This document shows, piece after piece, positions 33,852-39,565 of a DNA stretch of 64,000 nucleotides. Both the position numbers and the translations under genes were made by a program. Location: positions 124,001-188,000 of the forward strand of contig NZ_JANUCJ010000004.1 of the NCBI RefSeq assembly GCF_024807615.1, read 5' to 3'. The DNA comes from Tsukamurella ocularis (GTDB lineage Bacteria; Actinomycetota; Actinomycetes; Mycobacteriales; Mycobacteriaceae). The first letter of the stretch is position 1, and the number at the start of each line of letters is the position of its first letter. The notes under the pieces are model-generated. The model worked only from the letters and a program-made list of their open reading frames with translations, did not search any database and was not told the DNA's origin.

Positions 33852-36800
33852 CTAGTGCGCGGTCGCCGCGACGTCGCCGTCGTGGTCGTCCACACGCCCG
33901 TCGCGGGTAGCGTCACCGCCGCTGAACCGCTGCAGAAAGGCATCGCGGTACGCGGGGAACCGTCCCTCGTCGATGGCCCGTCGGGCACCTTCGGTGAGCG
34001 CAGTCAGGAACCGCAGGTTGTGGCGGGTCACCGCCTGCACCGCCGACGGGGCGTCGGTGCGGTAGAGGTGGTGCACGTACGCGCGGATCGGCGACGGTGC
34101 AACCCTGTCCTGTACGGGGGTGGCGTCGAGGGGGCGCACGTCGTCGCGGAAGGCGGGGGTCGACACCGCGATCGCGCCTTCGGCGGTCAACGCGATCCCG
34201 CGATTCGCGAGGTCCTGCGGCGCAGCGGATTCGACGAGGTCGACGCCCGCGCCGATGGCGTGCAAGAGGTCCTCGGGGCCGCGGACTGCGGTGAGGTACC
34301 GCGGCAGTGCTGCATTCAGCGCCGTGGTGAGCTGCACGAGTGCCTCGCCGGCCTGTGGATCGCTCGCGGCGCCGATGATCCGGACGCCGCCGAATCCCAG
34401 TCCGCCGGAACGCACGTCTTCCTCGTGGCGGGCGAGGAGATCGCGCAGCGCGGCCCGGTCGTGGACGAGGCGCACGGGGACGCTGGCCCACAGTGACATC
34501 TCGCCCCGCCGCAACGCCGTGAGCCAGTTGTGCTCGGCGAGGGCGCGCCGGACGCCGCTTGCCGCCGCAGGTGCGAAGACGACGTCGCCGCCCAGCTGGT
34601 ACGCAGCGGTGACTGCCGCCGCCGGATCGGAGGAGGGGGCCGAGACATCCACGAACAGAGACAGATCCGAGCCGGTAACCGCGGCGAGGCCGCCGGCCTC
34701 CTCGATGGTTTCGGCGCCGGGGTGGAGCGCCAGCCGGGCCCCGTCGACGGTGATCGCGCCTGCGCCGAGTCTCTCGGCCGATGCGGGATCGACGCCCGGG
34801 ATCGCGCCGAGCGGCGCTGAAGCCACGAAAGCCGGTGTGGCGATCGTCCGTTGGGCCGTGTGCAGCGTCCCCGATCGGGCGGCGTCCGATCCGCCGGTGA
34901 CCTCGAAGCGCACCGGGTCGGTCACGGAGTCGGCCTGCAGTCGGGCGTGCGCGGAGAGTGATCGATAGTCCGAACGCAGCTCGGAGAGCTCCGCCGCCAG
35001 TGCGCGATTGCTCGCGCGCAGCTCTGCCAGTTCGGCCGTGCTCCGGCGGGCTTGCGGAGCACCGGCTCCCGCGCCCGTGCGCGCCCGTGTGGGAATCAGC
35101 GCCGGGGCGGCTCCAGCGGCCGGCGGGCGCGGTGCCGGAACGCGAGTCGGATCCGCGGTTCGCTCGGCGGCCGCGATCGCCGGGTTCTGCTGCACGGGTG
35201 CGGTGTCCGCATCCGCGCCGACGTTCATCGCGCGCAGCCCGTCGCCCTCCACGTCGATGCGGGGGAGTGCCTTATCAAGCCAGCGCGGGATCCACCAGGC
35301 GCGCTCGCCGAGCACCGCCATCGCCGTGGGCATGATGATCATCCGCACGAGGAAGGCGTCGAAGACGATGGCCGCCGCCATCGAGAAGCCCATCAGTTTC
35401 AGGAAGGTCATGGAGGAGAGCGTGAATCCGGCGAAGACGGAGATCATGATGATCGCCGCCGCAGTCACGACGCGGGCCCCCGACCGGTAGCCGATCCGGA
35501 TCGCCTCCAGGGCCGGCGCGCCGTGGTAGTGCTCCTCCCGCATCCGACTCACCAGGAAGACTTGGTAGTCCATGGCGAGGCCGAAGACGATGCCGATGAG
35601 GAAGATCGGCATGAACACCAGGATCGGGCCGCGTTCCTCGGGCGCGATCCAGCCGAGCCAACCGTCCTGGAAGAAGCCGACGGTGACGCCGAACGTGGCC
35701 GCGATCGAGAGAAGGAAGCCCAGGGATGCGATCACGGGGATGATCACCGACCGGAAGACGATCATCAGCAACAGGATCGCCAGGCCGACCACCACGATGA
35801 GGTACAGCGGCAGCTTCGAGGTGAGCGTCTCGGAGAAATCGGCATTGATCGCCGCGGCGCCACCGATGCCGATGTAGGTGGACGTGGCGCCGCCCACGGT
35901 CTCGGCGCGGTCCCGCAGCTCGTCGAGGAGGGCCGCGGTCTGCTTCGTCGACGGTCCGGACTCGGGGACGATGATGAACTGTGCCGCATCGCCGGTCACG
36001 TTGGGCACGGGACCGATCACGCCGTCGTGGGCGATCCCGGGCAGGGCGCGTGCCTGCTCGGCGAAGCGCTGCGTCGCCGCCTTCAGGTCGCCCTTACCCT
36101 GCGTGTCGACGACGGCGACGAGCGGCGACGACTTGCCGGCGCCGAAGGCCTCGCTCTGCATCTGCACGGCCGCCTTGTCCGACGGTGCCGCGAAGTCCAG
36201 GCCGAGCTCGAGCTTGCCGATCGGGATGGCCGCGAGCGCGAGGATCGCGACGGCTCCCACGAGGAAGGGAAGCGGCTTGCGGGTGAGGAGCTCGCCGATA
36301 CGCTGCCCCATGGGGCGGCGCTCGGTCTGCTCGGGCGTCCACAGCAGTGGCAGTCGCGGCGTGAAGACCTTCGACTTGAAGAGGCCCAGCAGGGCCGGTA
36401 GCACCGTCAGCGCGACGAGCACAGCCAGCGCGACAGTGACCGCGGCGCCGAGCCCCATCTGCGAGAGGAAGGACATGCCCGTGATCGACAGCCCGCACAG
36501 CGCGATGATCACGGTGGCGCCGGCGAAGACCACGGCGCTGCCGGCGGTGCCAACCGCGAGGCCGGCGGCGTGTGATCGATCGGACGTGGTCATCAGCTCC
36601 TGGCGGTACCGGGAGATCACGAACAGCGAGTAGTCGATGCCCACCGCGAGCCCGATCATCATCGACAGGCCGGTGGTGGAGGTGCTGAGCGTGAGGAAGG
36701 ACGTGCCGATCGCGATGATCGACGTCGAGAGGCCGATGCCGATGAGTGCGGCCCCCAGCGGCATCAGCGCCGCGAGCAGCGCCGCGAAGGTGATGATCAT

Positions 36801-37388
36801 GACGATCACCGCCACCGCGATGCCGATCATCTCCGCCGGTGGTTCGGCCTCCGTCTCGTTCGCCGAGCCGGCACTTTCGACCTTCAGCCCGGCATCGGTG
36901 CCCGCCTTCTTCGCCGCCGCTACGGCCTCGATGGACTCCTCCGAGACCTCTTTGACGTCGCCGAAGGAGAAGTGGATCTGCGCCGTCCGGCCGTCGCTGC
37001 TGAGGTTCTCGGCAGCGGCCGCCCCCATGGTGGGGTTGGGCACCGAGGCCTTCTCGGCGGTGGTGAGCTGCGGCACCTGGCGTAGCTTGTCGACCACGGC
37101 ATTCACCGCCGCGGCGTTGCCGCCCTGGTCCAGTCGCTGTCCGTTCGTGGACTGCAGCACGACGGTGGCGGTGGGCGCCTGCGTCTTGGCGGTCTCGGGA
37201 AACTTCTCCTGCAAGACGTTCTGCGCCTCGACGGCTCGGCTGCCGGGGAGGTTGAAGTCGTCCTTGAAGGGCTTGGACAGCGACGATCCCGCGGCTCCGA
37301 TCGCGAGGAAGGCGACGATCCAGAGCACGAGGACGAGCCACCATTTCCGGTAGCAGAACCGTCCGACCTTGTAGAGAAGTGATGCCAT
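33852..37388 (-). CDS. MMPL-family exporter fused to degenerate tRNA-guanine transglycosylase domain
   Basis: One unbroken 1178-codon frame. Residues 1 to about 715 are an RND/MMPL exporter: a first helix at about 16-34, large extracellular loops, and two repeats of helices including ISRYRQELMT and VFGLAMDYQVFLVSRMREEH. Then come a Pro/Ala linker (about 720-780), a coiled coil (TAELAELRASNRALAAELS, about 781-813) and a domain at about 826-1157. This last domain aligns along its length with TGT: SGTLHTAQRTIATPAFV, PRYLTAVRGPEDLL, GVDLVES, RAYVHHLYRT. TGT's nucleophile Asp is Glu1053, the second Asp and the GGF loop are gone, and the three zinc Cys are absent, while Asp914 and His1123 remain. 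So it is a non-catalytic TGT fold. A two-component system is immediately upstream. Confidence 0.85.
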   Translation of the reverse strand: MASLLYKVGRFCYRKWWLVLVLWIVAFLAIGAAGSSLSKPFKDDFNLPGSRAVEAQNVLQEKFPETAKTQAPTATVVLQSTNGQRLDQGGNAAAVNAVVDKLRQVPQLTTAEKASVPNPTMGAAAAENLSSDGRTAQIHFSFGDVKEVSEESIEAVAAAKKAGTDAGLKVESAGSANETEAEPPAEMIGIAVAVIVMIITFAALLAALMPLGAALIGIGLSTSIIAIGTSFLTLSTSTTGLSMMIGLAVGIDYSLFVISRYRQELMTTSDRSHAAGLAVGTAGSAVVFAGATVIIALCGLSITGMSFLSQMGLGAAVTVALAVLVALTVLPALLGLFKSKVFTPRLPLLWTPEQTERRPMGQRIGELLTRKPLPFLVGAVAILALAAIPIGKLELGLDFAAPSDKAAVQMQSEAFGAGKSSPLVAVVDTQGKGDLKAATQRFAEQARALPGIAHDGVIGPVPNVTGDAAQFIIVPESGPSTKQTAALLDELRDRAETVGGATSTYIGIGGAAAINADFSETLTSKLPLYLIVVVGLAILLLMIVFRSVIIPVIASLGFLLSIAATFGVTVGFFQDGWLGWIAPEERGPILVFMPIFLIGIVFGLAMDYQVFLVSRMREEHYHGAPALEAIRIGYRSGARVVTAAAIIMISVFAGFTLSSMTFLKLMGFSMAAAIVFDAFLVRMIIMPTAMAVLGERAWWIPRWLDKALPRIDVEGDGLRAMNVGADADTAPVQQNPAIAAAERTADPTRVPAPRPPAAGAAPALIPTRARTGAGAGAPQARRSTAELAELRASNRALAAELSELRSDYRSLSAHARLQADSVTDPVRFEVTGGSDAARSGTLHTAQRTIATPAFVASAPLGAIPGVDPASAERLGAGAITVDGARLALHPGAETIEEAGGLAAVTGSDLSLFVDVSAPSSDPAAAVTAAYQLGGDVVFAPAAASGVRRALAEHNWLTALRRGEMSLWASVPVRLVHDRAALRDLLARHEEDVRSGGLGFGGVRIIGAASDPQAGEALVQLTTALNAALPRYLTAVRGPEDLLHAIGAGVDLVESAAPQDLANRGIALTAEGAIAVSTPAFRDDVRPLDATPVQDRVAPSPIRAYVHHLYRTDAPSAVQAVTRHNLRFLTALTEGARRAIDEGRFPAYRDAFLQRFSGGDATRDGRVDDHDGDVAATAH

Positions 37389-37528: not shown

Positions 37529-38185
37529 CTAGCGGGGCGTGAGCCCGCCGTCGTGCGCGAGGATCGCGAGCTGCACGCGGTTGGTCACGTCGAGCTTGTC
37601 CAGAAGCCGCGAGACATGGGTCTTCACGGTGGCCTCGCTCATGAACAGCTCGCGGCCGATCTGCGCATTGGACCCGCCTCCGGCGATGCCGAGGAAGACC
37701 TCGTGCTCGCGGTCGGTGAGCACCGCGATCCGGGCGAGCGCGGTGCGGCGGCGGTCCTCACGCGGATCGTCGGCGAACCGCGCGATGAGCTTGCGGGTCA
37801 CACTGGGGGAGAGCATCGCCTCGCCCGAGGCGACCACGCGGACGCCGTCGAGCAGCTGGCGCGGCGGGGTGTCCTTGAGCATGAAGCCGGCGGCGCCCGC
37901 CTGCAGGGCGCGCATCACGTAGTCGTCGAGGTCGAACGTGGTGAGCACGATGACCTGCGGCGGCTCCGGCTCTGCGCGCACCAGCGCGGTGGCGGCCAGG
38001 CCGTCGACCGACGGCATGCGGATGTCCATGAGCACCACGTCGGGATGGAACTCGCGGACCAGGCCCACGGCCTCGGTGCCGTCGCCACCCTCGCCGACGA
38101 TCGTCAGGTCCTCGGCGGACTCGATGATCATGCGCAGGCCGGACCGCACGAGCGGGTCGTCGTCGATGATGACGATGCGGGTCAC
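37529..38185 (-). CDS. NarL/LuxR-type response regulator
   Basis: A 218-residue response regulator. The receiver domain has acidic pocket VIIDDDPLVR, phospho-acceptor Asp54 in VVLMDIRMPS and the conserved Lys in GFMLKDTPP. The C-terminal LuxR helix-turn-helix covers TDREHEVFLGIAGGGSNAQI and MSEATVKTHVSRLLDKL. AGGAGG lies four bases before GTG 38185. It follows its kinase by 46 bp and precedes the MMPL-TGT gene by 140 bp on the same strand, which makes that exporter a candidate target. Confidence 0.92.
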   Translation of the reverse strand: MTRIVIIDDDPLVRSGLRMIIESAEDLTIVGEGGDGTEAVGLVREFHPDVVLMDIRMPSVDGLAATALVRAEPEPPQVIVLTTFDLDDYVMRALQAGAAGFMLKDTPPRQLLDGVRVVASGEAMLSPSVTRKLIARFADDPREDRRRTALARIAVLTDREHEVFLGIAGGGSNAQIGRELFMSEATVKTHVSRLLDKLDVTNRVQLAILAHDGGLTPR

Positions 38186-38231
38186 GAGGCCTCCTGGGGT
38201 CGTGACCATCCTGCCACGGTGCCCCGGCGAG

Positions 38232-39395
38232 TCAGGCCCGGTCGACGGGGACGGGCAGCTCGGCGTACACGCGCCACCCGCCGGCACCGGTGGCGGCGGA
38301 GCTGATCTCGCCGCCGGCGAGATGCACCCGTTCGGCCAGGCCGATCAAGCCGGAGCCGGACCCGGGCAGTGGGGGCGCGGGTGAGCGGGGGCGATCGTTG
38401 ACCACCTCGATCGAGAGTCGGTGCGCGTGCAGTCGCACGGCGACCCGGACGGCGGCCGGACCGGCGTGCTTGCGGACGTTGGTCAGGCTCTCCTGCACGA
38501 TGCGGTAGGCCGTGCGGCCCAGGGTGTCCGGCACCGCGTGCGGCGCGGCGGCGGCCTCGTCGATCAGCAGATCGACGGTGGCGCCGCCCACTCGAGACTC
38601 CTCGACCAGGCGACCGAGGTCGGAAAGGTCCGGCTGCGGCGCAAGGGGCTCGGTGTCGGTCCCGCGCAGTACGCCGAGCACGCCCCGCAGGTCCTCGAGG
38701 GTCTCGTGCGCCGTGGTGCGGATCTCCGCCGCCGCCCGTTCGACGGTGCCGGACGCCGCGTCGGCGTTGACCTCGAGCGCGCCGGCCTGCAGAGCGATGA
38801 GCGAGACCCGATGCGCCAGGACGTCGTGCATCTCCCGCGCGATGCGGGAGCGCTCGGCGGTGCGGGCCTGGACGGCGCGCAGCTCGCGTTCGGCCTCGGC
38901 CCGCACGGCGCGCTCGCGCAGCGACTCGATGAGGTCCCGGCGCGCCCCGACGTAGGACCCCCAGAGCGCGAAGGCCGCGGCGAGCGCCACGCTGGTGAGG
39001 GTGTCCCCGAGCTGCCACGGGACGCTCGACCACGGGTGCGGCACGGCGAGGCAGGCGGCGACGAAGGCGGTCGCGATCACCAGCACGCGGTCACGCCGCC
39101 GCACCGCGAGGGTGAACAGGCCGAGAAGGGCTGCGCCGGGGAATCCGATGCCCGCGGTGAGGAGCCCGCCGATCACCGTGATCTCGAGGGGCCAACGCCG
39201 GCGCCACCACAGGAGCACGGAACCGGCCAGGCCCACGACGAGCGCGAGATTGCCGTAGGCGATGGAGCCGCCCCGCCACTCCACCGCCGCCGTGCCGAGC
39301 GCGACCAGCATGGACAGCAGCACGCATGCGCCGTCCCGGAGGCGCGGTGCGATCCACCACCGCTGCCACCGCGGCCCGGCCGCGCTCGAATCCAT
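38232..39395 (-). CDS. NarL-type sensor histidine kinase (HisKA_3)
   Basis: A 387-residue membrane kinase. Four or more transmembrane helices occupy residues 20-145 with very short loops, so the sensor is within the membrane. A coiled helix leads to the HisKA_3 dimerisation motif SRIAREMHDVLAHRVSLIAL (phospho-His in MHD) and a C-terminal ATPase with IVQESLTNVRKHA and GSGSGLIGLAERV. TACCGT on this strand ends six bases before the ATG, so the message is probably leaderless. Envelope-stress kinases of this layout often pair with exporters or ABC pumps (family knowledge). Confidence 0.92.
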   Translation of the reverse strand: MDSSAAGPRWQRWWIAPRLRDGACVLLSMLVALGTAAVEWRGGSIAYGNLALVVGLAGSVLLWWRRRWPLEITVIGGLLTAGIGFPGAALLGLFTLAVRRRDRVLVIATAFVAACLAVPHPWSSVPWQLGDTLTSVALAAAFALWGSYVGARRDLIESLRERAVRAEAERELRAVQARTAERSRIAREMHDVLAHRVSLIALQAGALEVNADAASGTVERAAAEIRTTAHETLEDLRGVLGVLRGTDTEPLAPQPDLSDLGRLVEESRVGGATVDLLIDEAAAAPHAVPDTLGRTAYRIVQESLTNVRKHAGPAAVRVAVRLHAHRLSIEVVNDRPRSPAPPLPGSGSGLIGLAERVHLAGGEISSAATGAGGWRVYAELPVPVDRA

Positions 39396-39514
39396 GCGTC
39401 CACGGTACTGGCGGACGGAGCCGGAGTGGAGCCGTCGAACGTCGCGACCGGAGCGCCGGCGCCTACGACTTTCGTCGGAGGCCAGCCACGTGGACTGTGG
39501 TTGCTCACGCGAAC

Positions 39515-39549
39515 GGGGCGCCGCCGCGGCTCTCCCGCGACGACGCCCC
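39515..39549 (-). terminator. Imperfect GC hairpin after fadE23
   Basis: GGGGCG (39515-39520) and CGCCCC (39544-39549) close a stem extended inward by CG and CGCG pairs with single mismatches. It starts 17 bases after the acyl-CoA dehydrogenase stop. Confidence 0.4.
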
Positions 39550-39565
39550 ATCGAACCTTCCCCCG

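Follow-up and report, generated by a model that had tools for sequence, protein, structure and literature searches.

A degenerate tRNA-guanine transglycosylase tail on a Tsukamurella MMPL exporter and its putative movement between exporters

The window analysed here, a whole stretch of 64,000 nucleotides from Tsukamurella ocularis (genome G000), carries on its minus strand a gene (33852..37388) encoding a protein of 1178 amino acids (aa), in which an MMPL exporter, a linker, a coiled coil and a catalytically degenerate tRNA-guanine transglycosylase (TGT) fold follow one another. An earlier note, made from the sequence alone, had described one 1178-codon frame with these parts; coordinates, strand, the PF03176 and TGT matches and a common site in related genomes bear this out. 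The MMPL/RND transporter domain (residues 1-720; 35229..37388) matches PF03176 in two stretches (294.8 bits, E 9.5e-88) and belongs to the MMPL family, with 13 hydrophobic segments preceding the tail by a crude count. It is not an MmpL3 by the trehalose monomycolate exporter model NF052608, to which the protein scores 209.7 bits for a cut-off of 1400. The Pro/Ala-rich linker (residues 721-782; 35043..35228) varies in length and sequence, mean pairwise identity being 13-32% in three 20-residue segments of six sequences. The coiled coil (residues 783-822; 34923..35042), a single helix in the structure model, has the highest conservation within the tail, and the degenerate TGT fold fills residues 823-1157 (33918..34922).

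The tail matches the TGT profile with 131.6 bits (cut-off 26.3) and scores 110.8 bits against the equivalog model of the enzyme, TIGR00430, well short of its cut-off of 306.75. Its structure model aligns with TGT over 322 residues, and among the matches listed all 50 rows of the structural alignment are TGTs. The earlier note had named the lack of a TGT barrel in residues 826-1157 as what would overturn its proposal, and the model shows the TGT fold there. Its end-to-end match holds for the fold but not for the sequence, in which about 40 residues past the position of Asp102 (Zymomonas mobilis TGT numbering, used throughout) are deleted, with HMMER aligning two separate stretches. The model of the full-length protein was unusable (mean pLDDT 36.5, two sequences).

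The window genome has three TGT genes, each of a different type. The C1-type is likewise an MMPL-linker-coiled coil-TGT fusion, whose TGT scores 375.7 bits in G000, above the Tgt cut-off of 306.75. The C3-type joins a major facilitator superfamily (MFS) exporter to a degenerate TGT (196.5 bits in G000); its MFS part scores 447 bits to the OtrB model, below the cut-off, and 265.5 bits to the EmrB subfamily, above the cut-off of 230.2. The W-type, that of the window, occurs in 8 of the 16 genomes of the genus (G000-G005, G012 and G013). A C1-type TGT is present in 15 of the 16 (G006 has a partial copy at a contig end), and among the genus loci, all of which were fetched, no free-standing whole TGT was met, the TGT parts of G014 lying in broken frames and the contig-end pieces of G003 and G006 being unjudgeable. 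Further tailed MFS exporters are found in G007 (EmrB subfamily, above the cut-off) and G013 (LfrA-like, below the cut-off of that model); in all, exporters of no fewer than two MMPL and three MFS types carry the tail. The other MFS-TGT protein of G007 (L035:6456-9668) is a C3-type ortholog by its MFS part (75% identity), and its TGT, with 288.9 bits for the cut-off of 306.75, is the least worn of the scored tails falling below that cut-off and perhaps an intermediate stage of decay. The coiled coil gave 43 matches in 26 genomes, 40 of them at TGT-tail loci, one at a contig end (G006) and two, both weak, elsewhere (E 0.037 and 0.079). A PF01702 search of 401 genomes of the family, which counts stretches and not genes, found TGT in 375; among the matches listed, members of the genus have one to five stretches (G006 one), other genomes have one, except four with two, and frames outside the genus do not exceed 717 aa. 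The window gene had been taken for a lone oddity without a known setting, and this does not hold, as the genus has a catalytically intact MMPL-TGT fusion and transporter-TGT fusions are in print (PMC11130926).

The three types differ sharply at the active site. All 15 C1-type rows have Asp102, the GGFQ motif, Asp156, Gln203 and Asp280. In TGT, Asp280 is the nucleophile, and Asp156, Gln203 and the GGFQ loop serve in base recognition. The C3-type tails (15 rows, of which 14 belong to the common MFS and one, L038, to another) keep Asp102 and Asp280 in 15 of 15, with Asp156 replaced and positions 105-107 deleted in every row. In the W-type tails (8 rows) Asp102 is kept throughout, corresponding to Asp914 of the window protein (34647..34649); Asp280 has become Glu in seven, including the window's Glu1053 (34230..34232), and is Asp in one, while Asp156 and Gln203 are lost and positions 106-107 deleted in all eight. 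The partial G006 tail (L039) is omitted from these counts, and the two G007 tails (L035 and L036) form a group of their own outside them. The earlier note was thus right that the nucleophile is replaced at Glu1053, that the second Asp and the GGFQ loop are gone, and that Asp914 and His1123, the equivalents of Asp102 and His349, remain. Arg286 and Arg289, which we take to be contacts to the anticodon loop, are kept in none and one of the eight W-type tails, respectively; 12 of the 15 C3-type tails keep Arg286. The isoelectric point does not discriminate, since active TGTs (5.39 and 5.92) are not basic either and the W-type and C3-type pseudo-tails alike average 6.06.

The cysteines of the structural zinc site (Cys318, Cys320, Cys323 and His349) are also missing from the window tail, as had been noticed, but their loss is no proof of inactivity. 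They are missing in all 38 rows of the three types, including the 15 catalytically intact C1-type TGTs, and, among the 20 free-standing TGTs from related genera, in 10 that keep the catalytic residues. These ten (L066-L068, L070-L074, L077 and L078) form with the C1-type a zinc-less TGT lineage, and because the absence extends to all three types and to half of the free-standing enzymes, the loss of the zinc ligands probably predates the fusion.

The W-type gene lies at one chromosomal site in its eight carriers, its frame being split by contig ends in G003, interrupted in G005 and unbroken in the other six. A sequencing error or a chance join of two genes, the former a doubt raised in the earlier note, can therefore be set aside. 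The interruption in G005 (gene at L028:1416-5168) is an insert encoding a transposase-like protein, named by eye. At the same site G011 has an MMPL of 737 aa without a tail (L152:5971-8142), 66% identical to the window MMPL, which may reflect loss of the tail rather than its never having been gained.

In related genera tgt stands alone: all 20 loci fetched, from 20 of the 23 genomes outside the genus with a match (G024, G029 and G054 were left out), encode an enzyme of 391-498 aa. An MMPL gene lies directly before tgt on the common strand in five of these loci (L066, L074, L077, L078 and L080) and a few kilobases (kb) upstream in three more (L069, L073 and L079). The same is seen in Corynebacterium glutamicum, where CmpL4 (NCgl0228), an MMPL protein implicated in corynomycolate lipids, is encoded upstream of tgt (PMC4287177); unlike in Tsukamurella, the two are separate proteins, and the arrangement is a probable pre-fusion state. 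An MMPL tree was built by a quick method from 36 rows, leaving out duplicates and near-duplicates (L136, L137, L144 and L145) and matches that covered no more than 500 columns (L069, L079 and L124). In this tree the C1-type exporters group with four of the six tgt-linked MMPLs (support 94), so that most of the latter relate to the C1-type and not to the window's MMPL. L073, 2 kb from tgt, is in the C1-type group; the tgt-adjacent L080 and L066 fall elsewhere, L066 (presumably Corynebacterium-like) as a long, unsure branch, and L143, which lies within a few kb of a tgt, is labelled 'other'. Seven W-type MMPLs make up a clade of their own (99), with the tail-less MMPL of G011 as its sister (100). 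A whole-gene duplication of the C1-type fusion is rejected, on the basis of this quick-method tree, as the origin of the window gene. Since the W-type MMPLs stand apart beside a tail-less sister, and the C1-type stands with tgt-linked MMPLs, the W-type most likely arose by movement of the tail and not by copying of a C1-type gene. A joint origin of the W-type and C3-type tails is tentatively suggested by a quick tree of TGT tails, in which ZM, L036 and L033 have long branches.

Sequence and trees together point to the following course of events. In Tsukamurella, tgt would have been fused behind the neighbouring mmpL exporter gene, so that a TGT whose active site was complete became anchored in the membrane. 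The coiled coil and TGT tail would then have moved onto a DHA2 MFS exporter, onto the window's different MMPL and, in two genomes, onto further MFS exporters, and on the common MFS and the window MMPL the active site would have been lost with the fold kept. Within a single genus, an enzyme of RNA modification would thus have turned into a pseudo-enzyme tail transplanted repeatedly onto different exporters, and forms that are intact, intermediate and dead, along with empty sites and an allele lacking the tail, can be compared there. It would follow that the sole intact-looking TGT of Tsukamurella acts from the membrane.

The degenerate tail appears to be under selection. Simple Nei-Gojobori estimates of the ratio of nonsynonymous to synonymous substitution rates (dN/dS), subject to high dS, a strong G+C bias and unreliable linker alignments, are 0.19-0.29 for the W-type pseudo-TGT in six close pairs (five full-length and the G003 tail) and rise to 0.35 and 0.50 when two distant pairs are compared. 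For the coiled coil they are 0.04-0.18 (six close pairs) and 0.13-0.28 (distant pairs), and for the MMPL part 0.07-0.10 (five close pairs) and 0.08 and 0.20 (distant pairs). These values indicate that selection maintains the tail, though with a looser hold than on the transporter; in three close pairs the W-type tails are 74-75% identical, against 93-95% for the MMPL part. What is kept is unevenly spread over the 160 positions that are the same in 34 or more of 35 enzymes, counting as kept those retained in at least 75% of tail rows. With a set of active-site positions that we drew up ourselves, the W-type tails keep 2 of 21 of these, 9 of 12 within the 327-351 helix and 48 of the 127 remaining positions, and the C3-type tails 6 of 21, 12 of 12 and 63 of 127 (Fisher p for W-type and C3-type, respectively: active site 0.006 and 0.036, helix 0.016 and 0.0004). 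The helix corresponds to residues 1101-1125 of the window protein (34014..34088), with Tyr1104, His1107 and His1123 aligned to Tyr330, His333 and His349. Tyr330 and His333 form, with Phe92 and Trp326, the hot spot of the TGT dimer (PMC5395182).

The most economical account is that the fold of a dimeric enzyme has been reused as a docking tail. The pseudo-TGT tails would be docking modules that keep the helix by which TGT subunits grip each other. Through this helix and the coiled coil they would most likely pair with the active TGT carried by the MMPL-TGT protein, or else among themselves, and so could bring several exporters and the tRNA-modifying enzyme together in a single complex at the membrane's inner face. 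On this view the tail would have no part in tRNA modification or base sensing. The boldest version of the proposal has it pair with the active C1-type TGT; the plainer one has it self-assemble by the coiled coil. Several points weigh against it. The 327-351 helix was picked after the alignment had been seen and may be kept for its packing in the core alone, and the positions compared are not independent. Of the other contacts, Lys52 and Glu339 are lost in all eight W-type tails and Trp326 is kept in one; Phe92, kept in seven of the eight, is Val in the window copy itself; the loop-helix 47-62 keeps one of five invariant positions; and the C3-type tails are without Phe92 and Lys52 in 15 of 15. 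Half of the genus genomes (8/16) do without the window-type gene. A quadruple mutant of C. glutamicum grew no better when it received tgt along with cmpL4 (PMC4287177), so we know of no functional link between these two genes. Taken as a whole, from the tgt-mmpL fusion through the spread of the tail to dead tails as docking modules, the account is plausible but falls short of probable.

An import function would make the transporters carriers of a 7-deazaguanine (queuine or preQ1) that the fused TGT uses on the spot. The Tsukamurella MFS- and MMPL-TGT fusions have been named as candidate queuosine-precursor transporters, and fusions of TGT to QPTR, an established importer, occur as well (PMC11130926). 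The genus does look like a salvager of ready-made base, probably queuine, served by the C1-type TGT, because QueA has no match in any of its 16 genomes, QueC gives only weak fragments of about 21-22 bits in 15 of them and none in one (lying in long frames, they are on our reading a related domain), the QPTR (Vut_1) family is present in all 16, and a gene for glutamyl-queuosine tRNA synthetase (GluQRS; L025:4821-5678, above the NCBIfam cut-off) is located in G000 some 1.3 kb away from the C1-type gene. That same QPTR member, however, is encoded separately and does not adjoin the TGT genes at the listed positions; the fusion partners resemble exporters (OtrB-, EmrB- and LfrA-like MFS, and MMPL); and CmpL4 has been tied to corynomycolate lipids (PMC4287177). 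In addition, a C. propinquum MMPL failed to complement preQ0/preQ1 transport, though its authors do not exclude expression trouble (PMC11130926). The window copy, with an exporter-like partner and without the residues needed for base use, fits import poorly, and the idea has a slim chance. More generally, transporter-TGT fusions lose weight as a pointer to queuosine-precursor transport, because some carry a TGT without a working active site and the partners are exporter-like.

Alternatively, the tail might do no more than assemble its own exporter into homo-oligomers, for which the coiled coil would be mainly responsible, leaving the TGT domain inert and unrelated to the active TGT. The strong conservation of the coiled coil and the faster evolution of the TGT domain relative to the MMPL part agree with this, but purifying selection on the TGT domain and the preferential retention of its dimer helix do not, and we think it unlikely. 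It is rather improbable that the tail is just a passenger that recombination into exporter genes happened to produce, kept by the cost of its loss or the need for harmless folding: its divergence far beyond that of the MMPL part, its absence from half of the genus and the tail-less MMPL of G011 are as expected of a passenger, whereas selection on it, its presence on at least five exporter types and frames staying open across variable linkers in most copies are not. A sensor binding deazaguanine, guanine or tRNA and gating the exporter had been put forward in the earlier note next to a scaffold. The Asp102 equivalent is indeed kept in both degenerate families, and the C3-type keeps Asp280 and mostly Arg286; yet both have lost Asp156, Gln203 and the greater part of the GGFQ loop, and with its base pocket and nearly all its Arg286 and Arg289 gone the W-type tail is a very improbable sensor. 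Sensor and passenger are possible but weaker readings than docking, and it is the scaffold that the evidence favours as a candidate role.

Directly upstream of the fusion gene, as had been noted, stands a two-component system on the minus strand (37529-39551), comprising by Pfam a LuxR-type response regulator (37529..38287), at the site in all eight carriers, the window included, and a HisKA_3 histidine kinase (38232..39551), found in seven, its position in G005 being outside the stretch fetched. It probably controls when the exporter is made. At the G011 site neither regulator nor kinase occurs in the stretch read, where a different membrane-protein-like frame adjoins, and in the other seven non-carriers MMPL, regulator and kinase are all without a match at the site. 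Downstream of the fusion gene lies a small transglycosylase-like gene (PF06737; 32962-33354), presumably of the resuscitation-promoting-factor type, also found near the site in carriers and non-carriers. A short frame at 29032-29532 matches a nucleotide-cyclase domain.

Transporter-TGT fusions in Tsukamurella are as such already known: Quaiyum et al. (2024; PMC11130926) proposed an MFS-TGT (Tpau_0550) and an MMPL-TGT (Tpau_4044) as candidate queuosine-precursor transporters. The genus and transporter families are the same, and the C3-type and C1-type very probably include these two proteins, whose positions in G009 fit. The part of PMC11130926 consulted, which lies outside Table S1, says nothing of another MMPL fusion, of tail degeneracy, of the coiled coil, of an allele without the tail or of the absence of any other TGT, and degenerate TGT tails are the subject of no title or abstract in the literature searched, supplements being outside that search. 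Compared with bacterial Tgt (TIGR00430; Z. mobilis TGT), the window tail shares the fold, the N-terminal strands, most of the 327-351 helix, Asp102 and His349, but differs in its lost active site, its deletion of about 40 residues, its missing zinc cysteines and its fusion to an exporter. A further likeness is to eukaryotic QTRT2, the accessory subunit of the QTRT1/QTRT2 enzyme, described as a noncatalytic protein of TGT fold that pairs with a catalytic TGT (PMC8092309). The window tail is likewise a TGT fold without catalytic residues, although its catalytic loss would be a separate event and its pairing is proposed from residue conservation. QTRT2, as we understand it, is not fused to a transporter. 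By analogy, a membrane-built counterpart of QTRT1/QTRT2 is possible if doubtful: the pseudo-TGT tails, borne by exporters of lipid and drug type, would dock one-sidedly, their 327-351 helix against the intact Phe92/loop-helix side of the sole active TGT, which is itself part of an MMPL protein. Were this so, recruitment of exporters and queuosine modification of tRNA would take place in one assembly, and a catalytic fold would have been turned into a mobile assembly tag for transporters.

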